Shown: positions 15,935 to 28,188 of the stretch, in pieces
How positions within the stretch are numbered: position 1 is the first letter of the stretch
How the letters are laid out: the number at the start of each line of letters is the position of its first letter
Origin: Rhodovulum sulfidophilum DSM 1374
Lineage (GTDB): Bacteria; Pseudomonadota; Alphaproteobacteria; Rhodobacterales; Rhodobacteraceae
Assembly (NCBI RefSeq): GCF_001633165.1
Contig: NZ_CP015418.1
Location: 777,501 to 841,500, forward strand
Length of the DNA: 64,000 nt
Direction: 5' to 3'
The notes under the pieces: generated by a model
The model's database searches: none
Seen by the model: the letters and a program-made list of their open reading frames with translations, nothing else
Told to the model about the DNA's origin: nothing
Made by a program: the position numbers and the translations under genes

Positions 15935-17074
15935 TCATGCTGAGAGATCGAGGGCAACGGTGTAGACACCGTCCTGCGGGAGCAACGGGAAGCGCTTGCG
16001 AAATGCGGCGAGCGTCTTTCGAGCGTCGAAACCATCCTTGATGCCCGGGTTGAGCCAGCCGGCCAGTGCTTCGAGAGCAACCAGATGCAGCGGCGTCTCA
16101 TTGAGACCATGCCAGACGGCGTAGGCGCGCTTGTTGCGCACCGCGTTCAGTTCCGCGATGCCGGGATCCGAGACGATCCGGATCAAGCTTTCGCGCGCTT
16201 GGGCTTCGGTGACGTTCGCACCGATGGAGATACCGCCTGCGGCGTCCCCTTTCAGTCCGCCGGTTGCGACATAGACATCAGGTTGGCGCGTCAGCATGTA
16301 TTCGAGATTGATGGGACCGACCGCTTTCGGCAACACGTCAGCCGCGATACTGTGGCCACCCACCAGGGCGGCGAGATCGGCAAAGCTGCCCCGTGCGATG
16401 CTGGCGCAGCAGGGCATCACCCCCGCGTGGCTGTGGAAGACCAGATCGGTGGGGGCTCTGGATCGATCGCCAAACGCCCCGGTGATCCGTTTCAGCGTCG
16501 CCTGGTAGAAGGAAATCGTGTCTTCGCCGCGTGTTTCCTGCCCGAGCAACTGGCTGAGGATTCGAAGGCTCGGAACCGTGTCCTTCAGCGGATCCTGTGC
16601 AAAATCGACCACCGCGACAGTGAGACCCGCCTGGGTGAGGCTGCGGATGAAGGACGTGCTCCCGTCGTTGTCGACCGGTCCGGCATTGAAACGGCTGATC
16701 AGCACCAGATCTGGCTGAAGCATCAGCAGCCTTTCGATCGCGTAGTCGCTGCCGACTCGCCGGCCGATGACGGGCAGTGACTTGAGCGCGGGAAACCGGC
16801 TGCTCCATGCTTCGGCCTCGTTCGGAAACGTCCTGTTCAGATCGTCAGCCCAGCCGGCAAGAATTGCGATTGGATCCGGATGAACCATGCCGATCATGCT
16901 GAGAAAACGCCCTTGCCCCAGCACGACGCGCTTGGCCGGCCTCGCAAGCCTGACCTCACGGCCCAGGAGATCGCGAACCACGATACCGGGGTTCGCCCTG
17001 GCAAGACCCGGGGCCGCAAGCGCCATCGCGCCGCAAACGAAACCACGCCGCGTAATCGTATCCATGTCACTCAT
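15935..17074 (-). CDS. Periplasmic iron-siderophore binding protein (FepB/BtuF type)
   Basis: A 379-residue class III binding protein (Peripla_BP_2). The N terminus TITRRGFVCGAMALAAPGLA contains a twin-arginine (RRGF) export signal cleaved after ARA. The lobes are recognised by VVRDLLGREVRLARPAKRVV and IERLLMLQPDLVLISRF, and by the C-terminal LEALAGWLNPG. It would deliver a ferric siderophore to the FecCD permease. It is the first gene of the minus-strand operon and is divergent from a TonB receptor at 17197. Confidence 0.85.
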   Translation of the reverse strand: MSDMDTITRRGFVCGAMALAAPGLARANPGIVVRDLLGREVRLARPAKRVVLGQGRFLSMIGMVHPDPIAILAGWADDLNRTFPNEAEAWSSRFPALKSLPVIGRRVGSDYAIERLLMLQPDLVLISRFNAGPVDNDGSTSFIRSLTQAGLTVAVVDFAQDPLKDTVPSLRILSQLLGQETRGEDTISFYQATLKRITGAFGDRSRAPTDLVFHSHAGVMPCCASIARGSFADLAALVGGHSIAADVLPKAVGPINLEYMLTRQPDVYVATGGLKGDAAGGISIGANVTEAQARESLIRIVSDPGIAELNAVRNKRAYAVWHGLNETPLHLVALEALAGWLNPGIKDGFDARKTLAAFRKRFPLLPQDGVYTVALDLSA

Positions 17075-17196
17075 CGTCGCGCGTTTCCGATGCCCTTTGT
17101 AATCTTGACTGTTTTAATCATAGTTCTTATGGGGGGTGCAACACGCTTGAGGCAAAGGCGCAAAGCCTTGAAATTTATCGTATATTAGGAGGTGTC
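17075..17196. promoter_or_regulatory. Divergent promoter region of iron locus
   Basis: This AT-rich 122-base gap drives the binding-protein operon (minus) and the receptor (plus). TTGACT at about 17106 and TATATT near 17181 are possible promoter elements for the plus strand, and AGGAGG at 17187 is the receptor ribosome site. No clear Fur or Irr palindrome was found by eye. Confidence 0.4.
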
Positions 17197-19326
17197 GTGG
17201 GTCATTTTCGTGCGTTCGCTCTTGTTTTGATCGCCAGTCTGAACCTCATGTCCACAGCCTCGGAAACGCGGGCGCAGGATGATGTCGTCGTGCTCCCGCC
17301 GGTCGTCTTGACAAGTGAGGGGGAGGATTCGGACAGCTATGTGGCCGAAACGTCGCGCGCCGCCACCAAGACAGCCACGCCACTGATCGAGACACCGCAA
17401 GCCATTTCCGTGGTCACCGAGGCCGAGCTGGAAACGCGCCAGGTTCAGTCCGTCGGTGCGGCCATCCGCTACAATTCCGGCGTCCTCGGCGACTATTGGG
17501 GTGGCGCCGATCTGCGATACGACAAGACTTTGATCCGCGGCTTCGATTCCGCCCAATACCTCAACGGGCTCAAGCTGAGCAAAGGCAGGTTCGCGGGCCT
17601 GGGACGGCCGGAACCGTTCGGCCTGGAACGCATCGAGGTGCTGAAGGGACCGTCTTCGGTGCTCTACGGGCAAAATGCTCCGGGCGGTCTCGTCAACCTT
17701 GTCAGCAAGAAGCCGACGTCCGAGACCATTCGCGAGATCAACACCTCGGTCGGCACCTTTGGGCGTCGCCAGGGCTCGTTCGACTTCGGCGGAGAAATCG
17801 ACGCGGAAGGCAAGTTCCAGTACCGGCTGGTCGGCCTGGCTCGCGATAGCGGCACCCAGACCGATCACGGCAGGGACAATCGCCAGTACCTGGCGCCTTC
17901 CCTGCGCTGGACGCCAACGTCCGATACCACCTTCACGCTTCTGGGGAGCTATCTTCGTGAGGACCTTGGGAACCAAGTCAACGTGTTGCCGCCGGTCGGC
18001 ACACTGACGTCAGCATCCTTCGGAAAGATACCGACCAGTTTCTACGCGGGCGAACCCTCGTTCGACAAATTCATTCGCACGTCGCGCTCGATCGGCTACG
18101 AGTTCGAACATCACTTCGATGACGTCTGGACGGTCCGGCAAAACCTTCGTTTTGACAGGCAGGACGCGGATTACCGTTATGTGAGCTATTCCGGTGCCGC
18201 CCTGGCCGGCACGACCATGCCGCGCAAACGCTCTTTTGTCGATCAGTCCCTCGAGTCCTTCGCTGTCGACAACCAGGCCGAGGCGGAGTTCACAACGGGA
18301 CGTGTCTCCCACGATCTCATGGTGGGTCTGGATTACCGATACATAGACTCCGCCTTCCGGTTCGGTACGGCGGCCGCCTCCAGCCTGGACATCGAAAACC
18401 CGGTTTACGGCGCGCCGGTTTCAATGCCGCCGACCACCCGCAGTGAAGAGACAGATCAGCATCAAACCGGCTTTTACCTGCAAGACCAGATGCGGTTGGG
18501 GCGGTGGGCGTTCACGCTCGGCGGTCGTTACGACGTCGTCAGCAGTTCGACCCGGAACCGGCTGACGAACACGGTCGTCGACCAAGATGACGAGAAATTC
18601 ACGTGGCGGGCAGGCGTAGTCTATCTGGCGGAGAACGGCCTCGCTCCTTACGCCAGCTATTCGACCTCATTCGAGCCGACACCCGGCAGCGATTTCGCCG
18701 GAGAAGCTTTCAAGCCGACAACCGGCGAGCAATTTGAAATCGGCGTGAAGTATCAGCCGGTCGGCTTCGACGGCTTCGTGACCCTGTCCGCCTATGAGCT
18801 GACCCAACAGAACGTCACGACGACCGATCCCGTCAATACCAGATTCGATGTCCAGACCGGCGAAACCAGGGTACGGGGTATCGAGCTGGAAGGTGTCGCC
18901 GCCCTCAGCGACAGCTTGAACGTGAAAGCCAGCTACACCTACATGGACGGCAAGGTGACACAGAGCAACGACTATCTGGGGAACGTTCCGGCTCAGATAC
19001 CGGATCACGTAGCAAGCCTCTGGGGCGACTACACCTTCCCGGATGGTGGTCCGCTGGCTGGCCTGGAAATCGGCGCTGGTGTGCGTTATATCGGCGGGCG
19101 TTTCGGCGATGCGGCCAACCGCATGGATCTGCCGGCAACGACATTGGTCGATGCCTCACTCCGCTATGATTTCGAGAACCTGAGTCCCGATTTTGCAGGC
19201 CTGAGCTTGAGGGTCAATGCAAGCAACCTGTTCGACAAAACCTATGTCGGTCAGTGCGCGAGCACCCGGTATTGCCAATATGGCGGACGACGAACCGTTT
19301 CAGCCTCGCTCGGATTCCGATGGTGA
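17197..19326 (+). CDS. TonB-dependent siderophore receptor (FhuA/FpvA-like)
   Basis: A 709-residue outer-membrane receptor beginning at GTG after AGGAGG. A signal peptide ends near ETRAQDD. The plug domain shows TPLIETPQAISVVTEAELET, LIRGFDSAQYLNGLKLSKGR, GLERIEVLKGPSSVLYGQNA, PGGLVNLVSKKP: the TIGR01783-type siderophore receptor pattern. The barrel ends TVSASLGFRW with the terminal aromatic. The divergent FepB/FecCD/FecE operon suggests one complete outer-to-inner membrane uptake path. The substrate is probably a hydroxamate-type siderophore by similarity, but this is not certain. Confidence 0.9.
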   Translation: MGHFRAFALVLIASLNLMSTASETRAQDDVVVLPPVVLTSEGEDSDSYVAETSRAATKTATPLIETPQAISVVTEAELETRQVQSVGAAIRYNSGVLGDYWGGADLRYDKTLIRGFDSAQYLNGLKLSKGRFAGLGRPEPFGLERIEVLKGPSSVLYGQNAPGGLVNLVSKKPTSETIREINTSVGTFGRRQGSFDFGGEIDAEGKFQYRLVGLARDSGTQTDHGRDNRQYLAPSLRWTPTSDTTFTLLGSYLREDLGNQVNVLPPVGTLTSASFGKIPTSFYAGEPSFDKFIRTSRSIGYEFEHHFDDVWTVRQNLRFDRQDADYRYVSYSGAALAGTTMPRKRSFVDQSLESFAVDNQAEAEFTTGRVSHDLMVGLDYRYIDSAFRFGTAAASSLDIENPVYGAPVSMPPTTRSEETDQHQTGFYLQDQMRLGRWAFTLGGRYDVVSSSTRNRLTNTVVDQDDEKFTWRAGVVYLAENGLAPYASYSTSFEPTPGSDFAGEAFKPTTGEQFEIGVKYQPVGFDGFVTLSAYELTQQNVTTTDPVNTRFDVQTGETRVRGIELEGVAALSDSLNVKASYTYMDGKVTQSNDYLGNVPAQIPDHVASLWGDYTFPDGGPLAGLEIGAGVRYIGGRFGDAANRMDLPATTLVDASLRYDFENLSPDFAGLSLRVNASNLFDKTYVGQCASTRYCQYGGRRTVSASLGFRW

Positions 19327-19374
19327 TGAGTGATCGTGCCGCGGTTCAATTGCTCAGATCACGGTTGCCTTAAG

Positions 19375-20094
19375 TCAGCGCCATCGACGGGTGAAACCGG
19401 ACGGGGCCGGGGGCGGGACCGAGGAAAGCGCCGCCTCCAACTCCCTGCGCCGCGCATCGAGCGCCAGCATCCGGTCCTTTACCTGCTCCGCGGGGATCCC
19501 CGCCATGATCGCGTCCACAAGCTTCGCGTGGCCGCCTCTCACGCGCGCCAGTTCCTTTTCCAGCTTGCTTCGACCGGCCAGGGCCGCGTCCTGCAGCCGG
19601 TTGCGCTCGGCCGTGTATTCCTTGCAGGACGCTTCCACCAGACCGGGATCCATAAGGTGGTGTTCCAGCGCATCGAGGACGCTGCGCTCAAGATCCACGC
19701 GCTTGATCGTCCGCATGTTCGTGCAGATGGCGCTGCCCTTGTTGCGGGCCCGGGAGCAGCCGGAGGCGTCCTGGCTGACCTTCGCGTATCCGCCGCCGCA
19801 GCCGCCGCAGCCGCCGCATTGCATCAGGCCCGAGAACAGGAACCTCGGCCGCCGCCGGTCCCATACCGGAACCCGCGTTCCTCTGGAAATCAGCGCCCCT
19901 TGGCGGCTGCGTACCGCCTGCCAGAGTTCATCGTCGATGATGCGCAATTCGGGGATCCCCGGCGGCATCAGGCTCGCACCCGATGCCGCACGGTCGAAAT
20001 AGACCTTCACCACCTCATATCCCTGGCGATCTGTCTGGGTGCGGTAGGCCCGGATCTGATCTTCGATTGACGCATCACGCTGCAGCTCTGTCGA
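19375..20094 (-). pseudogene. Serine recombinase remnant (copy 2), internally deleted
   Basis: This copy joins a short piece of the catalytic domain (STELQRDASIEDQIRAYRTQ, then YEVVKVYFDRAASGASLMPP) directly to the recombinase/zinc-ribbon part (IPELRIIDDELWQAVRSRQG). It lacks most of the catalytic domain and then loses frame after LEAALSS. The zinc ribbon carries an expanded CGGCGGCGGG stretch compared with copy 1. It is fused in frame to an IS3 OrfB start at 20095, giving a 308-codon chimeric open frame that is unlikely to be functional. Confidence 0.82.
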
Positions 20095-20301
20095 ATAACC
20101 GAACCGCCTGCGTTCTCCGGACAACTCTTTCAAACGCTGACGCAGCCCTTGGTCCTGCGGCCTGCTTGACCTTCGCCGATAGACGCGCGGATCAAGCCCG
20201 GCCAAGGCACACGCCCTCCGCTGGTTATAGTTCTTCTCTGTCATGGCCCAGTCCACGGCACGTCTCCGAGCACCGGGCTTCAGAAGCGTCCGCAGGCTCA
20301 C
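20095..20301 (-). pseudogene. IS3-family OrfB N-terminal fragment fused to recombinase
   Basis: The first 69 residues (LKPGARRRAVDWAMTEKNYN, then RRACALAGLDPRVYRRRSSR, ELSGERRRFGY) are the start of an IS3/IS407-group OrfB. The DDE domain is missing; the frame runs straight into recombinase codons. It overlaps the OrfA stop by four bases, as in an intact element. Confidence 0.8.
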
Positions 20302-20585
20302 TCGAACGCGTGGCGTTCGCCTGCTCCCATTCCCAGCATTTCCTTGAGTGTGGCGACGTCGAGCATGTGCTCCGCCAGCATCTTCTTCAGCTTGGCGTTC
20401 TCAGTCTCCAGGGCCTTCAGCCTCTTGGCCTCGGACACTTCCATGCCGCCATACTTCGAGCGCCATTTGTAGAAGGTGCCATCGCTGATGCCGTGCTTGC
20501 GGCACAGTTCCTTGGCACCTATCCCGGCCTGATGCTCCTTCAAGATGACAATGATCTGCTCTTCGCTGAAACGGCTTTTCCGCAT
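20298..20585 (-). CDS. IS3-family transposase OrfA (IS407-like)
   Basis: A complete 95-residue OrfA: the helix-turn-helix RKSRFSEEQIIVILKEHQAG followed by KELCRKHGISDGTFYKWRSK and a leucine-zipper region (ALETENAKLKKMLAEHMLDV). The ribosome site AGGAGACAG precedes the ATG. The probable IS end lies about 20615-20640. Without OrfB it is inactive. Confidence 0.85.
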   Translation of the reverse strand: MRKSRFSEEQIIVILKEHQAGIGAKELCRKHGISDGTFYKWRSKYGGMEVSEAKRLKALETENAKLKKMLAEHMLDVATLKEMLGMGAGERHAFE

Positions 20586-20639
20586 CGTCTGTCTCCTCGT
20601 TTGGAGAACAGGCTAACCTCAAACCGCGGACTGTTCAGG

Positions 20640-21175
20640 GGAGCACGTCACGCCTCTGCGACGAATCGGCCTGACAGACCAGCAACTCCACCCGCCTGAG
20701 TATGCCGGGACTTCATCGGATTCGTGAGTCCTCTGGCTCATGTTTCGTTCCTCTTTATGGGCCCAAATCCTCCCTTGGGGGCAGAGAAGCCAACCAATAG
20801 GGTATGCTCATCGATCAGGTCTCCTTGCGACGCCTGAAACAGGCCAAAAGCTTGAAATAAATAAATCCAGAGACTGATGTCCGAAAATGAAGATTGCCCC
20901 AAATAGCCACCTCAAAGTCTTTTCGGCCCCTGGCTCCACGCGCATCGCCGTTCGCTGATGCGTCCAAATCCTTCGCGTGACTACTTGTAGACCGCACACC
21001 TTTTGCGTGTTACCTTTAACCCGTCAGGTCGGCTTGAGCATTGAAGCTGACGATTGCCTTTCGGTGGTCCTTTTCCGGTAAATTTTCTGGCCTCGAGATT
21101 GGCCTGATGTCTCTCAACATAGCATGATCGCCTTTCGAAACGGAGGGTGCATCAATTTCAATTGAGGAGCAAAAT
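20640..21175. other. Gene-free region upstream of the RiPP locus
   Basis: No convincing coding sequence. It is noticeably richer in A and T than the surrounding DNA, especially 20860-21175. It should contain the promoter of the precursor gene; the ribosome site GAGGAG at 21164-21169 is clear but no strong -35/-10 pair stands out. A short minus-strand frame at 20808-20999 resembles nothing I know. Confidence 0.5.
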
Positions 21176-21322
21176 ATGACCAAAAATCTGATGGAAAGCG
21201 TTGAGCCTCAGCTCTCCGTTCCGGTGAAGCGCGTGAATGCCGGCGCGGCTGTTGGCGAAGATGGCGCTGAATTCTCCGATACGACGGTCGTGATCATCCT
21301 GGCTTTTGAAGACGAAGCCTGA
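21176..21322 (+). CDS. RiPP precursor peptide, PatE-like
   Basis: A 48-residue peptide with the ribosome site GAGGAG six bases before the ATG. It reads as a leader (MTKNLMESVEPQLSVPVKRV onward) and then GAEFS-DTTVVIIL-AFEDEA. In the patellamide precursor PatE each unit is GLEAS, an eight-residue core (for example VTACITFC), then AYDGE. Here GAEFS (residues 30-34) matches the N-terminal protease site, residues 35-42 the eight-residue core and AFEDEA (43-48) the macrocyclisation follower. There is no Cys and no heterocyclase gene, so no thiazolines are expected. The protease gene starts 31 bases later. Core borders are inferred. Confidence 0.75.
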   Translation: MTKNLMESVEPQLSVPVKRVNAGAAVGEDGAEFSDTTVVIILAFEDEA

Positions 21323-21353
21323 TCTGCGGCATTGCTAAGGAAAGCTGCGCGCT

Positions 21354-23354
21354 GTGGTCAAAGTCGAAGAAATTGCCGGTGTGCGGGAGCTTTGGCGAAA
21401 GTCGACGGGCTTGCCAGAGATCTGCGTGGCCGTTGTCGACGGCCTCGTCGACCTTGATCACCCGGTATTTCACGGTGCGCAGCTGTCCTGTCTGGACAAT
21501 GTTTGGCAGGACTTGTCGAGTGGAACCAGTGTTGGTCATGGAACGCATGTTGCCAGTCTCATTTTCGGACAACCGGGAGGGCCGGTACCGGGGATTGCCC
21601 CAGGGTGTTCCGGAATTAACGTTCCGGCTTTTTCCGACGTAACGCGCCGCTCTTCGCAACTGGAAATAGCACGTGGAATCGAACTCGCGGTCGAGCACGG
21701 CGCACATATCGTGAATATCAGCGGAGGTCAGTTTTCACAGTCGGGAGACCCGGAGGATGCGCTTGGGAGGGCACTCCGGCTTTGCGGCGAAGAGAATATC
21801 CTGGTGGTGGCTGCGGTCGGCAACAACGGCTGCTTTTGCAACCATGTTCCCGCGGCAGTGTCCACGGTTCTTGCGGTTGGCGCTCTTGGCGACGACGGTT
21901 TGCCGCTTCCGCAAAGCAATTGGGGTGCCGCGTATAAAGGCCATGCAATTCTGGCGCCGGGGCAAAACCTGCTGGGCGCCGAGCCTGGCGGCGGGCTGGT
22001 TCAGATGACCGGCTCCAGCATGGCGGCTCCCGTCGTTTCGGGTGTCGCGGCCGTTCTGCTTAGTATGCAGGTGGCGGCTGGCCACAAGCCGGATCCACTG
22101 GGTGTCGGCGCGTTGCTGATCTCCACTGCAGATAAGTGCGACATAGGCGAAGCCGGGCACAAGCCTGACGGAAGCGGATATTGCGACCGCTTTCTGAGCG
22201 GAGCCATAAACATAGAGAGGTCAACAAGGATTATGTCTGAGATGCTTCGGAATGGCGAAGGGGCCGAGGCCAGCGCATGCGGCTGTAAAAAGCGCGCGGA
22301 GTCCGGTGATCCTGAATTGGGTGTGAGCGTCGCGGCGGAAGTGGCGGCGGCAGAGCAAAGCGTTGTCCCTGAGGCGGCTCTTGTTGTGCAATCAGCACAG
22401 GAAACAGCTGCCTCGGAACAGTCGAAGCCACCGCAACAGGCGAATGCTCCACAATCGGGGCCTCTGGCAATGATCGACGGTCCGATTCTGTCATCTCTTC
22501 CTGGCGGGATGCGGCAACGGGTCTATGCGCTTGGCGAGCTTGGCTATGATTTCGGCACCGAGGCGCGGCGCGACACGTTCAAGCAGCTGATGGCGCCGCA
22601 GGAGATCGACGGCACCGTCCTTCCGCCCAACCCCTATGATGCCCGCCAGATGGTCGACCATCTCGCGAACAACCCGTCGGAAGCGCGCTCGCTGATCTGG
22701 ACGCTCAACCTCGAACTGACGCCGATCTATGCGCTCGAAGCCAGCGGCTCGTTCGCCGCCGAGATCTACGGCCTGCTCACCCGCCTGCTGACCGGCTCGG
22801 TCGCCGCAGACGATGACCCCGCTCACATCGAGCGCGTCGCCATCCCCGGCGTGCTGAGCGGGCGGTCGGTGAAACTCTATTCCGGACAGGTGGTGCCGAT
22901 CGTCGAGATCGAGCAGATCCGCGGGCTTTATGGCTGGGAGGTCAACAAGCTGGTGGAGGCCGCGGTCAGCGCCGCGCAGGCGCATGGAGACGGCGCTGCG
23001 GAGGTCGCCACCATCACCGAGAACCTCCGCGAGTTCCTGACCAAGATCTATTACGATTTGCGCAACCTGGGTACGATGTCGCGCGACCGGGCCTTGAATT
23101 TCGCGGCAACGAACGCGTTCCAGGCGGCACAGACCTTTGCCAGCGCGCTGTCAAGGGGCATGGCCGTGGATACGATCAACGTCGAGAAGAGCCCGTTCTG
23201 CCGTCTCGACAGCGATTGCTGGGACGTCCAGCTGCGCTTCTTCGACCCCGAGAACAGCCGCCGCGCAAGACGCGTCTACCGCTTCACTATCGATGTCAGC
23301 GACACAATGCCCGTAACCCTCGGCGAGGTCCGTACATGGACCGCGCCGCAATAA
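21354..23354 (+). CDS. PatA/PatG-type cyanobactin maturation protease (fused)
   Basis: A 666-residue protein from GTG 21354. Residues ~20-240 are a subtilisin (S8) domain with triad Asp29 (AVVDG), His62 (GHGTHVA) and Ser222 (GSSMAAP), and oxyanion Asn157 (AVGNNG). Residues ~300-375 are an Ala/Gln/Ser-rich linker with CGCKKRAE. Residues ~378-666 match the conserved C-terminal domain of PatG: LGELGYDFGTEARRDTFKQL, SLIWTLNLELTPIYALE, VEKSPFCRLDSDCWDVQLRF, VYRFTIDVSDTMPVTLGEVR. PatA removes the leader and PatG cleaves the follower while joining the core head to tail; here one protease domain may do both. It has no signal peptide. Base composition shifts near 22480, suggesting a domain fusion. Confidence 0.88.
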   Translation: MVKVEEIAGVRELWRKSTGLPEICVAVVDGLVDLDHPVFHGAQLSCLDNVWQDLSSGTSVGHGTHVASLIFGQPGGPVPGIAPGCSGINVPAFSDVTRRSSQLEIARGIELAVEHGAHIVNISGGQFSQSGDPEDALGRALRLCGEENILVVAAVGNNGCFCNHVPAAVSTVLAVGALGDDGLPLPQSNWGAAYKGHAILAPGQNLLGAEPGGGLVQMTGSSMAAPVVSGVAAVLLSMQVAAGHKPDPLGVGALLISTADKCDIGEAGHKPDGSGYCDRFLSGAINIERSTRIMSEMLRNGEGAEASACGCKKRAESGDPELGVSVAAEVAAAEQSVVPEAALVVQSAQETAASEQSKPPQQANAPQSGPLAMIDGPILSSLPGGMRQRVYALGELGYDFGTEARRDTFKQLMAPQEIDGTVLPPNPYDARQMVDHLANNPSEARSLIWTLNLELTPIYALEASGSFAAEIYGLLTRLLTGSVAADDDPAHIERVAIPGVLSGRSVKLYSGQVVPIVEIEQIRGLYGWEVNKLVEAAVSAAQAHGDGAAEVATITENLREFLTKIYYDLRNLGTMSRDRALNFAATNAFQAAQTFASALSRGMAVDTINVEKSPFCRLDSDCWDVQLRFFDPENSRRARRVYRFTIDVSDTMPVTLGEVRTWTAPQ

Positions 23355-23378
23355 CCGAACACAGAGGAGGAGAAAGTC

Positions 23379-24266
23379 ATGAACCGGACTACCCCGACAG
23401 AAAGCGATCCGAACACGGTCGGCACGGTTGTGCTTCCTTATGAGTTGGTCGTCCCGGTCGCCGACGTGTATCTGGTGGGATATGGTATGCGAGCGCCGAA
23501 TGATTTCACGCTCGAGACCGTCGCCGTCATGAAGCAGGCCAAGCGCATTTTCGGTGTGCCACCCATCGACGCATCGGCCTTTGGCATACCGCAAATGGAG
23601 AGCCTGCTGCCGCTCTACGGCCCTGACAAGAAGCGCTCGGTAACCTATCGGGAAATGGTCGACACCCTGCTCGATGCGGCAGAGGCAGACGGACCGGTGG
23701 TCTTTGCCACCTATGGTAGCGCCATGGTTGGCACTTTGCCGGCGCATTTGATTCTCGAGGAAGCGGCCTCGCGCGGGCTCAGGGCCCATGTCAGCAACAC
23801 GGTTTCCTCGTTTGACGGCATCTGGTCGCGCTTCAACATCGAGCCCTTTTTCGGCTTTCAGATTTGGGAGGCCACGGCCTTCGTCACAATGGAAATCGTC
23901 CCCGACACCTCTGCGAACCTCTTGTTGCCACAGGCCAATGTATATGGCGTGAAAAGTGGTCCCGATGCCAGCAGGAATCTTGAAATCGCGAGAACGACAA
24001 CCGTTGCGGAATTGCGGGATCACTTGCTGAAATTCTACCCGCCGGATCACAGGATCCACCACGTCAAGGCAGCATCCGGCTCAGGTGAAAGCGGCGTGAA
24101 CGCTGTGGTCGAGACTATTGAGCTGAAAGATCTCGATCAGCCGGGCCGTCAGCTCGTAAGTTCCCTTCTGGTTCCACGTGCGCCCGACTATGCGCATAAG
24201 GGAAAACTTCGATTGGATTTCAAAATGCATATTTCTTCGGATCAACCTTCCACGGAGGAAAAATAA
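23379..24266 (+). CDS. Tetrapyrrole-methylase-fold enzyme, borosin-like peptide N-methyltransferase
   Basis: A 295-residue protein after the ribosome site GGAGGAG, 24 bases downstream of the protease. It has the TP-methylase/SAM fold: DVYLVGYGMRAPNDFTLETV (SAM loop, residues ~29-48), VVFATYGSAMVGTLPAHLIL (~107-126), and FNIEPFFGFQIWEATAF. By alignment from memory, Tyr80, Arg86, Tyr90 and Tyr112 fall exactly where OphMA has catalytic Tyr66, Arg72, Tyr76 and Tyr98. OphMA N-methylates the backbone of the omphalotin core, also a Val/Ile stretch. Here the peptide is a separate gene, as in bacterial split borosins. Other TP-methylases act on corrins or diphthamide, so the substrate is inferred from context and these residues. 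Confidence 0.8.
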   Translation: MNRTTPTESDPNTVGTVVLPYELVVPVADVYLVGYGMRAPNDFTLETVAVMKQAKRIFGVPPIDASAFGIPQMESLLPLYGPDKKRSVTYREMVDTLLDAAEADGPVVFATYGSAMVGTLPAHLILEEAASRGLRAHVSNTVSSFDGIWSRFNIEPFFGFQIWEATAFVTMEIVPDTSANLLLPQANVYGVKSGPDASRNLEIARTTTVAELRDHLLKFYPPDHRIHHVKAASGSGESGVNAVVETIELKDLDQPGRQLVSSLLVPRAPDYAHKGKLRLDFKMHISSDQPSTEEK

Positions 24267-24582
24267 ATTTTCCACCTCGATTGAGGTTGCGTATATTTGG
24301 TCAAATGATTTTATAATAGGTCGAAATTTTCGAATGGAAGGAATCTCTCGTTGTTCAGTCTCAGCATATGGCGGAGAGGATTGATGCTGAATCTTTCGGA
24401 CTCTGAAGCCCAAGCCTTGCAGATGTATTCTTAGGGCATGAGGGGCGGCTATTTTGCGCTATTGGTCGGCGTTGTTGCAGAAAGGAGGCTTGAGTCGTGA
24501 CTTCCCTTTTCCCCTTCGGGATCATGCTACGCGGACGATCACGGCGGTGTAGAGGGCATTGAAGCGGTTGATGCGTGCGACG
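24267..24582. other. AT-rich spacer and IS C-terminal scrap
   Basis: The first ~110 bases after the methylase are AT-rich and gene-free. At about 24530-24585 the minus strand reads VARINRFNALYTAVIVRVA then stop, resembling the C terminus of an IS5-type transposase. IS-end-like sequence GGCGTTGTTGCAGAAA lies near 24468. Confidence 0.45.
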
Positions 24583-25017
24583 GGCGTTGTTGCGCAAATG
24601 CAGTGTGGATCCGTGTCGCGAATGTAGCGTGCTACCCAGTCGGCATGAGCAGACCTGCGAAGACCACTTACAAGACCACCAACTGGCGTCGCTATAATCG
24701 GGCTTTGAGGCAGCGCGGATCACTGACCGTCTGGTTCGATCCCTCGATGCAATGGTAGGCCATCCCGTCGGGGAGGCGTGGCCGTCAGCAGGCCTGCAGC
24801 GACGCCGCGATCCAGGTCTGCCTGACCCTCAAGGCCCTCCTCGGGCTGCCGCTCCTCCAGGCCACCGGTTTCGTGGCGAGCCTGCTGGAGTTGTCCGGCT
24901 TGGGCTGGGCTGTTCCGGAGTTCAGCACCCTGTCCCGGCGGCAGAAGACCCTGAACATGACCATCCCGTACCGCGGCTCCAGAGGCGCGCTTCACCTGCT
25001 TGTGGACAGCACCGGCC
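24583..25017 (+). pseudogene. IS5/IS903-type transposase, broken
   Basis: The IS left end GGCGTTGTTGCGCAAATG at 24583 precedes ATG 24645. The frame reads MSRPAKTTYKTTNWRRYNRA, an amber stop at 24756 (after SMQW), then continues as QACSDAAIQVCLTLKALLGL and TIPYRGSRGALHLLVDSTG, where homology ends at about 25017. The catalytic DDE part is absent. From 25018 to about 25310 I see no recognisable gene. Confidence 0.75.
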
Positions 25018-25309
25018 ACAAGGCGGCGCAGATGTTCGGGACCCTGCCGCCGGACCGGCACGATACCGTCTTCCGGGACCTCGCTAGAGCCATCGCGGCA
25101 GAGCTGAACACCGCGCTTGAGGCTCTGGTTGTTCTCCTCGATGAAAGCACGATCCACGCGCATTTCACGATCAGGAACTACACGAACATAGGGTTGGCCG
25201 TCAGCGAGGCGTCCAGGCGCGGCACCATGGCCCGGTTGCAGGATCTCGCTGCGGAAGTCATGCAGCAATACCATCCCGAAATCGAACGTGGCCATCGCAA
25301 ACGAGCCCG

Positions 25310-25800
25310 GCCGAGACAGTCGAGCGGATCAAGGCGCTGGCGCTCGAACGTCCGGCCCATGGCTGCAACCGCTTCGAGGCAATGCTGGCGCTCGAGGGCG
25401 TGCGGGTCTCCTCGATCACCATCCAGAAGATACTCAATAGTCGCCAGCGTGGCGCCACCGGTCCGAGTCGCTGGCGACGCTCTGGGCACGCGCTACGATC
25501 GCTGGCTGGCGCTCGAGGAGGCCCATGCGGGCAAGGCCATCGAGATCACCGCCGCGCAGGCTGCCTTCCTCGAGAAGCAGACCCCCTGCTTCCGGGAAAG
25601 ACACGTTGAATCAGGCACTCCCGGCGAGCTCCTTTCTGCGGACACGTTATTTGTCGGCACGCTGAAAGGGATCGGCAAGGTCTACCTGCACGCGGTCGTC
25701 GACACCTTCGGCAGCTATGCCTTCGGCTTCCCTGCACGTCTCCAAGCAGCCCGATGCCCCATCGAAACCGTCATGTCATTCGTTACTCAAGAAAGTTAAG
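25310..25800 (+). pseudogene. IS481-family transposase, N-terminal half, frameshifted
   Basis: Pieces in different frames read VERIKALALERPAHGCNRFE, SSITIQKILN, then LGTRYDRWLALEEAHAGKAI, FLEKQTPCFRERHVESGTPG, LKGIGKVYLHAVVDTFGSYA: the N-terminal half of an IS481-family integrase-type transposase. Frameshifts occur near 25440 and 25730, and the C-terminal half is missing. A separate IS481 C-terminal scrap lies at 55104-55241. Confidence 0.75.
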
Positions 25801-25894
25801 TGGACAACTGAGGCGCTTTACTGTGCGCAATGTCTGAAGGTTGTCATGAACCGGTGACATCTTCCGCGGAGTAGGACGGCCCCGAGGGACTCGG

Positions 25895-26176
25895 ATGATA
25901 CTGTGGCGATATGCGACGATGGCTGGCGCAATCGGGGCGCTGGCGGAGGGCGGGGCGGCCGCCCCCCTGCCAAAGGGCGAAGGGCTCAAGGTGATCCGCA
26001 AGGAATGTACCCGCTGCCACCCCCTGCGGAACATCGTGGACAGCGACGGGCTCACCGCGCCCCAATGGCGCGACTTCATTGTCCGGATGACTGATCTGGA
26101 AAACCGCCCGGAAAATCTCGACGTGGTGGTGGCCTATCTGGCCGAGCATTTCCCGCCCTACGCGCCCGGTGACTGA
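25895..26176 (+). CDS. Small c-type cytochrome-like protein
   Basis: A 93-residue secreted protein: signal-like N terminus (MILWRYATMAGAIGALAEGG) and one heme-binding CTRCH motif at about residue 38. The second half (LTAPQWRDFIVRMTDLENRP) resembles small monoheme cytochromes found beside dehydrogenases. The axial sixth ligand is probably Met65 (RMTD), but this is a guess. It precedes the PhoX-like gene by 254 bases on the same strand and may form a functional group with the diheme protein at 28250. Confidence 0.65.
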   Translation: MILWRYATMAGAIGALAEGGAAAPLPKGEGLKVIRKECTRCHPLRNIVDSDGLTAPQWRDFIVRMTDLENRPENLDVVVAYLAEHFPPYAPGD

Positions 26177-26430
26177 CTGGCCGGCGATGCCGACCGCCCA
26201 GGCTGAGCCAACCGGTCGCAACCGACGCCCTTCCAGAATAAAAAGTTTGATTTCAATGACTTACAGGACGCACCTGCGGTACCGTCATGCCCCCTTGGCG
26301 GGATCGCAGGTTATAACGTCACAAATTCGTTAACCCTCATTTCTAGACTTCTGGCATCCGTCCATGGGGCGGTGTGTGGCACCCTCTTGCCGCGCCTCAA
26401 GGCATTCATGCAAACCCAGAGGTTCCCTCG

Positions 26431-28188
26431 ATGACCCGTATCACTTTTCTGCTGGCGACGACTGCGTTGCTTGCAACCCCGGCCTTCGCCGACAGCTTCG
26501 AATTCTCTTCCGTTTCCGCCCCGACGACAGACGCACAGAAACGCGCGGTTCAGGCGTCGGACAGCGTCACCATCGGCGGCGAGACCGTGAAGATCGGCTA
26601 TCACATCCTTGCCCGCAGCGGGCAGAAAATCGGGGACGGCACCTGGGGGCTGCTGGTCGACAAGACCGGCAAGCCGGTGCGCAGCGAGGACGGCTCGGAA
26701 CATATCTCGGTCGATACCGACTTCTCGTCGCTGCTGCCGGTGGGCAAGAAGCTGTTCTCGATCAGCCATTTCGAATCGCGTCCCGGCGCGATGTACCTGA
26801 CCGAACTGTCTCAGGACCCCGAAACCGGTGTTCTGACCCCGGTCTCGACCAAGCCGGTGGATTTCTCGGATGTGGGCGGGCTCTGGGTTCCCTGCGCGGG
26901 GTCGGTGACGCCCTGGGGCACCCATATCGGATCCGAGGAATACGAACCCGACGCGCGCGAGGTTGCGGCGGCCGAAGAGCTGGCCGATATCGACGACTAC
27001 TTCTATCCGATGGCCCGTTATTTCGGCCTGAGCCCGTCCGAGATGACGCTGGACCAGTTCCGCGCGGCGTTCAATCCCTACAGCTTCGGCCATCCGACCG
27101 AGGTGACGGTCACCGAGGACGGCAATGCCACCGCCGCCAAGCATTACGCCATGGGCCGTCTCTCGATCGAGCTGCCCTATGTGATGCCCGACAGCAGGAC
27201 GACCTACATCACCGACGACGGCACCAATGTGGGCCTTTACATGTTCGTGGCCGACGAGGCGGGCAATCTGGACGCCGGCACGCTTTATGCCGCGAAGCTG
27301 ACCCAGACCTCGGACGAGGGCGCCGGGGCCTTCGATCTGGACTGGGTCGATCTGGGCCATGCCACCAGCGACGCGGTGAAGAAGATCATTGATGACAAGC
27401 CCGGCTTCCTCGACATCTTCGAAGCTGCTGATCCGGCCGAGGGCGGCACCTGCGGCGAGGGTTTCACCTCGATCAACACCACCTCGGGGCATGAATGCCT
27501 GAAGATCCGCGATGGCATGGAATTGGCCGCCTCGCGCCTGGAAACCCGCCGCTATGCCGCGATGATGGGCGCCACGACCGAGCTGCGCAAGGAAGAGGGC
27601 ATCACCTTCGACCCCGAGAACAACCGCATGTTCCTGGCCATGTCCGAGGTCGCCAAGGGCATGGGGCCTGAAACGAAATACGACATCGGCGGTCCCGACA
27701 GCGTGCAGGTGGCCGAGAACAAGTGCGGCGCCGTCTATCAGCTGAGCGTGGCCCCCGATGCTGCCATCGGCTCGGACTTCGTCCTGCAGGACATGGCCCC
27801 GCTGGTCGAGGGCACGCCCACCGAATATGGCGCCGACAGCGAATTCGCGGGCAATACCTGCGAAATCGACGGCATCGCCAATCCTGACAACCTCACCTAC
27901 ATGACCGGCCATGACACGCTGATCATCGGCGAGGATACCGGCTCGGGCCACCAGAATGACGCGATTTGGGCCTACAACATGACCTCGGGCGCGCTGACCC
28001 GGATCTTCACCACGCCCTACGGCTCGGAAACCACCTCGCCCTACTGGTACCCCGACATCAACGGCTTCGGCTACCTGATGGGCGTGATCCAGCACCCCTA
28101 TGGCGAATCCGACGCGGACAAGCTGGCCGATCCGGCCGACGCCATGGCCTATGCGGGCTATTTCGGTCCATTCCCGGCCAGCAAGTAA
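26431..28188 (+). CDS. PhoX family (DUF839) alkaline-phosphatase-like protein
   Basis: A 585-residue exported protein. ATG 26431 follows AGAGG and gives a Sec-type signal peptide (MTRITFLLATTALLATPAFA); the longer frame from 26374 has no signal. Family motifs seen are VPCAGSVTPWGTHIGSEEYE and SRLETRRYAAMMGATTELRK, then EGITFDPENNRMFLAMSEVA. PhoX enzymes are Ca/Fe phosphomonoesterases folded as a beta-propeller. Classic PhoX has a twin-arginine signal; this one does not. A hairpin separates it from a diheme protein, suggesting co-transcription with partial termination. The phosphatase activity is not proven by sequence for this subgroup. Confidence 0.8.
   Translation: MTRITFLLATTALLATPAFADSFEFSSVSAPTTDAQKRAVQASDSVTIGGETVKIGYHILARSGQKIGDGTWGLLVDKTGKPVRSEDGSEHISVDTDFSSLLPVGKKLFSISHFESRPGAMYLTELSQDPETGVLTPVSTKPVDFSDVGGLWVPCAGSVTPWGTHIGSEEYEPDAREVAAAEELADIDDYFYPMARYFGLSPSEMTLDQFRAAFNPYSFGHPTEVTVTEDGNATAAKHYAMGRLSIELPYVMPDSRTTYITDDGTNVGLYMFVADEAGNLDAGTLYAAKLTQTSDEGAGAFDLDWVDLGHATSDAVKKIIDDKPGFLDIFEAADPAEGGTCGEGFTSINTTSGHECLKIRDGMELAASRLETRRYAAMMGATTELRKEEGITFDPENNRMFLAMSEVAKGMGPETKYDIGGPDSVQVAENKCGAVYQLSVAPDAAIGSDFVLQDMAPLVEGTPTEYGADSEFAGNTCEIDGIANPDNLTYMTGHDTLIIGEDTGSGHQNDAIWAYNMTSGALTRIFTTPYGSETTSPYWYPDINGFGYLMGVIQHPYGESDADKLADPADAMAYAGYFGPFPASK

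Follow-up and report, generated by a model that had tools for sequence, protein, structure and literature searches.

What does an alphaproteobacterium make with a precursor peptide of the cyanobactin type, a protease of the PatA/PatG family and a methylase resembling those of the borosins, when the three are encoded side by side? The question is raised by a locus of Rhodovulum sulfidophilum DSM 1374, whose genome comprises 4.35 Mb in three contigs; the locus lies in a stretch of 64,000 nucleotides, hereafter the window, which corresponds to positions 777501-841500 of contig 1. Our answer, to which we give a probability of roughly 0.6, is that these genes likely yield a short backbone-N-methylated peptide, a RiPP (ribosomally synthesised and post-translationally modified peptide) made from a cyanobactin-type precursor by an A-type protease and a borosin-like methylase.

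The + strand of the window carries three consecutive open reading frames (ORFs), namely the precursor gene (21176-21322, 48 residues, ATG start), the protease gene (21354-23354, 666 residues, GTG start) and the methylase gene (23379-24266, 295 residues, ATG start). They are separated by only 31 and 24 nt, and a purine-rich stretch lies immediately 5' of each start, in agreement with an earlier note on this DNA that had described a trio of adjacent same-strand genes with ribosome sites. Given the family-model scores and the precursor homologues detailed below, the trio is more than a product of chance.

The precursor

A profile built from the window precursor and three counterparts found 13 proteins with E values from 3.5e-24 to 2.8e-6 (three of them being the profile's own members), and such homologues with a conserved leader rule out a chance ORF. 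Across the 14 aligned precursor rows, the mean majority fraction is 0.78 in the leader (residues 1-19, 21176-21232), 0.45 in the predicted core and 0.60 in the follower (AFEDEA, 21302-21319), that is, the conserved leader, variable core and follower of cyanobactin precursors. The leader contains P-x4-PVxR, which is present in 11 of the 14 precursors and in 0.05% of shuffled sequences (13/14 versus 0.7% for the shorter PVxR). A published hunt for cyanobactin precursors relied on the patterns KKNxxPxxxxPVxR and FAGD (PMC3428304), and the shared leader motif bears out the earlier description of the precursor as PatE-like. At the other end, FAGD occurs in five of the 14 precursors and an [AF][AF]-acidic pattern lies within the last eight residues of 13; the two nearest relatives end in AFEDEG and AFEEEA, close to AFEDEA of the window. 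When 13 precursor relatives were tested against TIGR04446 (PirE), a test that left out P0086, four matched, all below the cut-off (best E 8.8e-5). P0086 itself, a relative on a 693-base contig, has a core-like DTMVIII and ends in AASKSS, with no acidic follower.

Between leader and follower, GAEFS (21263-21277) is where the A protease is predicted to cut, owing to its likeness to the PatA consensus, given as G(L/V)E(A/P)S in PMC10885120. It would be followed by a core DTTVVIIL (21278-21301), the putative boundaries of which enclose the variable region. For unmethylated products, the computed [M+H]+ values are 855.5186 for cyclo-DTTVVIIL, 873.5291 for linear DTTVVIIL and 1535.7839 for the linear form with follower, DTTVVIILAFEDEA; every methyl group would add 14.0157.

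The protease

The protease scores 760.8 bits against TIGR03895 (cut-off 421.05). It consists of a subtilase domain (residues 23-261, 21420-22136, PF00082 at 98.4 bits) followed by PatG_D (residues 390-502, 22521-22859, PF18047 at 51.2 bits) and PatG_C (residues 553-662, 23010-23339, PF18065 at 131.7 bits), and its catalytic Asp29, His62 and Ser222, together with the oxyanion Asn157, align with those of PatA, PagA and PatG. Which of the two types it belongs to is crucial, since a review (PMC4663559) ascribes a two-helix macrocyclisation insert to PatG and confines the macrocyclase domain to G proteases.

Several lines of evidence assign it to the A type (PatA/PagA) at the level of sequence, these being the lack of a PatG-size insert, percentage identity and grouping in a tree. 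The two aligned stretches of the subtilase domain are separated by 44 residues in PatG versus seven in the window protease, the insert being presumably placed between the catalytic Asp and His; in the protease model (pLDDT 72, pTM 0.50), the strand bearing Asp29 is followed by the helix bearing His62 with no predicted helix in between. Over its whole length the protein is 52% identical to AcyA, which we take to be an A protease, and it shows 47-52% identity to PagA and PatA (47% for PagA) versus 36% to PatG. Against PDB entries, its subtilase domain scores 286.5 bits with PagA, 270-272 with PatA and 149-152 with PatG. A tree built from 27 subtilase domains places the window protease with the A types, on the other side of a branch (support 96/94) from PatG and from the second protease copies of actinobacterial loci (see below); PatG is represented in it by a single reference, entered as two joined stretches, that sits on a long branch. 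The PatA/PatG macrocyclase that the earlier note had seen here was thus right as to family; the macrocyclase label is rejected on the missing insert, the nearness to PatA, PagA and AcyA and the tree, with neither the insert nor a grouping with PatG found.

Within the protease gene, GC content at third codon positions changes from 0.56-0.68 (21354-22553) to 0.81-0.89 (22554-23354), a shift that falls close to the linker joining the subtilase and PatG_D domains, where recombination is possible.

The methylase

PF00590 matches the methylase at 46.7 bits (cut-off 27.8), and the PDB sequence matches are exclusively borosin-type backbone N-methyltransferases, with SonM at E 1.2e-13. The modelled fold tells the same story, as it matches SonM and OphMA, with the next fold family nearly 4 Z units lower. 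Arg86, Tyr90 and Tyr112 are invariant across 22 aligned rows, with Tyr80 also kept, and they reproduce the R72, Y76, Y98 pattern of OphA, so that the catalytic Arg/Tyr residues of OphA and SonM are present. The resemblance to borosin enzymes noticed earlier from the letters alone therefore holds in both sequence and fold, and the two family-model searches that had been proposed as checks, TIGR03895 for the protease and PF00590 for the methylase, each gave a score over its cut-off.

Relatives of the locus

When genome contigs were scanned with the methylase alignment, three loci with a methylase 50-60% identical to that of the window were found, in Gandjariella thermophila, Nonomuraea rhizosphaerae and Actinomadura craniellae. 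All three encode, in the same order and on one strand, a precursor, two PatA/PatG proteases and the methylase. The association of precursor, protease and methylase is hence conserved in these three actinobacteria, as the earlier note had hoped to see in relatives; absence from every relative, which it had named as fatal to its proposal, is not what the genomes hold. No common flanking genes were seen among ten ORFs scanned around the actinobacterial loci.

Further hints come from the protein set, in which an equal contig size is an indirect sign of linkage. Eight contig sizes, the window's included, are common to methylase clusters and the protease clusters compared (the best 120 of 2242), versus a mean of 0.32 when shifted, and 9 of the 26 methylase clusters on contigs of at least 6 kb have a protease match among those best 120. 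The same indirect sign adds two protease-precursor pairs and a further pairing of methylase and precursor, in Nonomuraea sp. NPDC050783. As for more distant methylases (26-30% identity), no PatA/PatG protease was detected by tblastn in the surrounding 12-13 kb at any of three loci. L042, L043 and L046 are loci with distant borosin-like methylases and no PatA/PatG neighbours, and the L043 frame has two stops.

In each of the three second protease copies of the actinobacterial loci (L003 8283-9986, L004 5166-7061, L005 8254-9966), Glu stands at the position of the catalytic Asp and His and Ser are retained; the GCxCxHVP stretch seen in A types is missing, and so is an insert of PatG size. A PDB comparison of two of these copies gave 193-218 bits for PatG (149-152 for the window domain) and, still higher, 254 and 267 bits for PagA. 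Taken with the tree, this suggests that each actinobacterial locus combines one A copy and one PatG-side copy, the latter being a putative C-terminal protease. In L004 (3081-7061) and L005 (5925-9966), the PatG_D/PatG_C parts of both proteases group as sisters, with 65% and 88% identity, and the subtilase parts do not, which reads as concerted evolution of tandem copies; this is not so in L003.

No such second copy is apparent in R. sulfidophilum. Nothing else in the host genome passes the TIGR03895 cut-off, the other match being a 38.7-bit subtilase, and the three actinobacterial second copies, used as queries, hit nothing in the window but the protease gene already described; the genome also has no match to a YcaO heterocyclase. 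Cyanobactin clusters are said in PMC4663559 to require both A and G proteases, and here one protease over the cut-off is found in the whole genome.

The likely product

We propose that the methylase, guided by the still attached leader, would transfer methyl groups to backbone amide nitrogens in the hydrophobic core DTTVVIIL, after which the A protease would remove the leader by cutting after GAEFS. The follower AFEDEA might be removed by another activity or by the same protease; in the actinobacteria, the PatG-side protease encoded after the A copy would be the natural candidate for both follower removal and ring closure. Because the R. sulfidophilum genome has no dedicated ring-closing enzyme, the window product would be linear unless the lone protease also ligates. 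Head-to-tail cyclisation is thus plausible in the two-protease actinobacterial loci and unsupported for the window, whose genome has no second-copy protease. The head-to-tail cyclic octapeptide predicted in the earlier note depended on a macrocyclase that was not found.

Several points weigh against our proposal. Searches of Pfam and NCBIfam, curated cyanobactin precursor models included, gave no match to the window precursor, and it has no FAGD at its AFEDEA end. Fold comparison does not separate A from G proteases, as the Z scores of the protease model are 40.4 with PagA, 40.3, 37.4 and 37.1 with PatA and 38.0, 37.0 and 35.8 with PatG, which leaves one PatG entry (4aks, 38.0) between two PatA entries (40.3 and 37.4), and the model is of middling quality. 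So is that of the methylase (pLDDT 74, pTM 0.57), the fold matches of which have root-mean-square deviations of 10.2-11.7, and Leu77 takes the position of OphA Tyr63. Most relatives are linked solely through equal contig size, and the remaining 17 of the 26 methylase clusters on contigs of at least 6 kb have no protease match among the best 120 of 2242. Finally, no exporter gene was identified in the part of the neighbourhood scanned.

A bolder claim, which we put forward tentatively and judge somewhat less probable than not, is that these loci form a RiPP family of their own, common to the host of the window and to actinobacteria; in it, a borosin methylase would N-methylate a cyanobactin-type core, A/G-type subtilases would excise it and the two-protease form would close it head to tail. 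The G-side protease would then be active despite lacking the PatG insert and having Glu at the place of the catalytic Asp, and the window would hold the one-protease form.

It is rather unlikely that the single window protease does everything, cutting off the leader, ligating the core and freeing the follower to give a head-to-tail cyclic, possibly N-methylated octapeptide. Its family does include the macrocyclase, the follower is kept in the two nearest precursor relatives though the host genome shows no second protease, and the proline or thiazoline preferred by PatG might be replaced by an N-methylated residue ahead of the cut. What speaks against it is the A type indicated by sequence and tree, with seven residues where PatG has 44, and the confinement of the macrocyclase domain to G proteases mentioned above.

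Surroundings and distribution

The trio lies between two transposase fragments, one 5' at 20298-20585 (- strand, HTH_Tnp_1 at 87 bits) and one 3' at 24873-25799 (+ strand, DDE_Tnp_1_5 at 58.5 bits over residues 2-51). Abutting the upstream fragment is an ORF at 19375-20301 (- strand) with a recombinase zinc-ribbon match of 22.3 bits, below the cut-off. No long near-identical repeats that would suggest a composite transposon were found framing the trio. Short stretches of the upstream flank match plasmid records, chiefly from Sinorhizobium (44 of 64), then from Paracoccus and Dinoroseobacter, in weak agreement with an alphaproteobacterial host. The region 17000-27000 has no Rfam match; promoter and terminator scans gave two and five sites, versus 1.2 and 3.8 in shuffled sequences. 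A defence role was also considered and rejected, as the PADLOC matches for the protease were a generic subtilase at 61.4 bits and IetS at a weak 16.4 bits, with none for precursor and methylase.

At the thresholds used, the methylase is present in one of 385 genomes of the window's class and one of 295 of its family, in both cases the window's own, and TIGR03895 is exceeded in one of 299 genomes of its phylum, again the window's own. Draws around the actinobacterial genomes gave 1/396, 3/200, 2/180 and 3/220, where the three starting genomes account for the close matches and the others are distant. Methylase relatives in the plasmid search are at most 30.2% identical, and no relative was seen among 66 pattern matches in viral contigs. 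The trio likely arrived horizontally. Two plasmid loci are worth recording. In L020 (8001-13158), on a plasmid of Gloeothece verrucosa PCC 7822, an A-type protease adjoins a protein in which a class I methyltransferase is fused to PatG_D/PatG_C and which has no PDB subtilase hit. In L021 (5950-10493), on a Streptomyces plasmid, a PatA-like subtilase (48% over residues 19-295) is followed by six small hypothetical genes, which are conceivable precursors.

Could the import be decaying or incomplete, a two-protease cluster that has lost its second protease and makes either nothing or an intermediate? The second copy is present in 3/3 actinobacterial loci and was not found in the window's genome, the trio has transposase fragments on either side and a jump in third-position GC (possible recombination) in its protease gene, and no other of the 295 family genomes has the methylase. 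However, none of the three ORFs is disrupted, the gaps between them are short and catalytic residues are kept. The window protease also pairs in both domain trees with P0091, its nearest relative, which sits on a contig equal in size to that of a window-type precursor; we consider decay quite improbable. Weaker still is the idea that the methylase acts on a terminus or side chain, or on a different molecule altogether, to which the breadth of the TP-methylase superfamily, the nearest NCBIfam model (YabN, 50.4 bits, far under its cut-off of 525) and Leu77 might point, but which we consider very unlikely in view of the borosin-only PDB hits, the gap to the next fold family, the retained active-site residues and a core that is hydrophobic like the mainly hydrophobic ones on which tested borosin enzymes act according to PMC11285071.

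Known systems and outlook

How does the backbone-N-methylated peptide proposed here relate to known RiPPs? With the piricyclamide, anacyclamide and prenylagaramide cyanobactins (PirE, AcyA, PagA), the window shares a short single-core precursor with the P-x4-PVxR leader (PMC3428304) and an A-type protease (identities above), and five of the 14 aligned precursors have the FAGD follower. It departs from them in having a TP methylase, no second protease and no YcaO in the genome; PatB, PatC or a prenyltransferase were not noticed at the window, no search having been aimed at them. With linear cyanobactins of the aeruginosamide type, it shares the use of a methyltransferase within a pathway of cyanobactin type, and the product may likewise be linear. 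Aeruginosamide is described in PMC11285071 and PMC4663559 as bearing C-terminal O-methylation, prenyl and thiazole groups, whereas the window methylase is of borosin type.

Among borosins, the split type IV systems (SonM/SonA) likewise have a discrete trans-acting methylase with the same fold and matching catalytic Arg/Tyr, as well as a separate precursor, which is their stated mark in PMC8429565. Unlike theirs, the window precursor is short, has a cyanobactin-type leader and comes with its own PatA-type protease. The fused borosins (OphMA, omphalotin) share the OphA residue pattern with the window methylase, but the omphalotin precursor is fused to the methylase and the prolyl oligopeptidase OphP takes part in cyclisation (PMC12235650). 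A borosin class with no borosin-binding domain, to which the window system could belong, is named in a figure legend of PMC11395268, which also cites the surveys behind borosin types V-X and RODEO profiling. No description of a borosin methylase combined with a PatA/PatG protease was found in the searchable literature, a scope outside which the main bacterial borosin surveys lie, and the combination may appear in these (Imani 2022, Cho 2022, Lee 2024).

Backbone N-methylation together with macrocyclisation makes peptides stable and membrane-permeable, and to our knowledge the ribosomal route that offers both is that of the fungal borosins. If our reading, cyclisation in the two-protease loci included, is true, bacteria would have a ribosomal way of making N-methylated macrocycles akin to cyclosporin, and a compact operon of three to four genes with a short separate precursor and a naturally variable core would be easy to engineer. 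The single protease of R. sulfidophilum versus the two of the actinobacteria raises the questions of what the second copy does and whether an A type can, on its own, release or cyclise an N-methylated core. The trio would also show two RiPP classes swapping parts.

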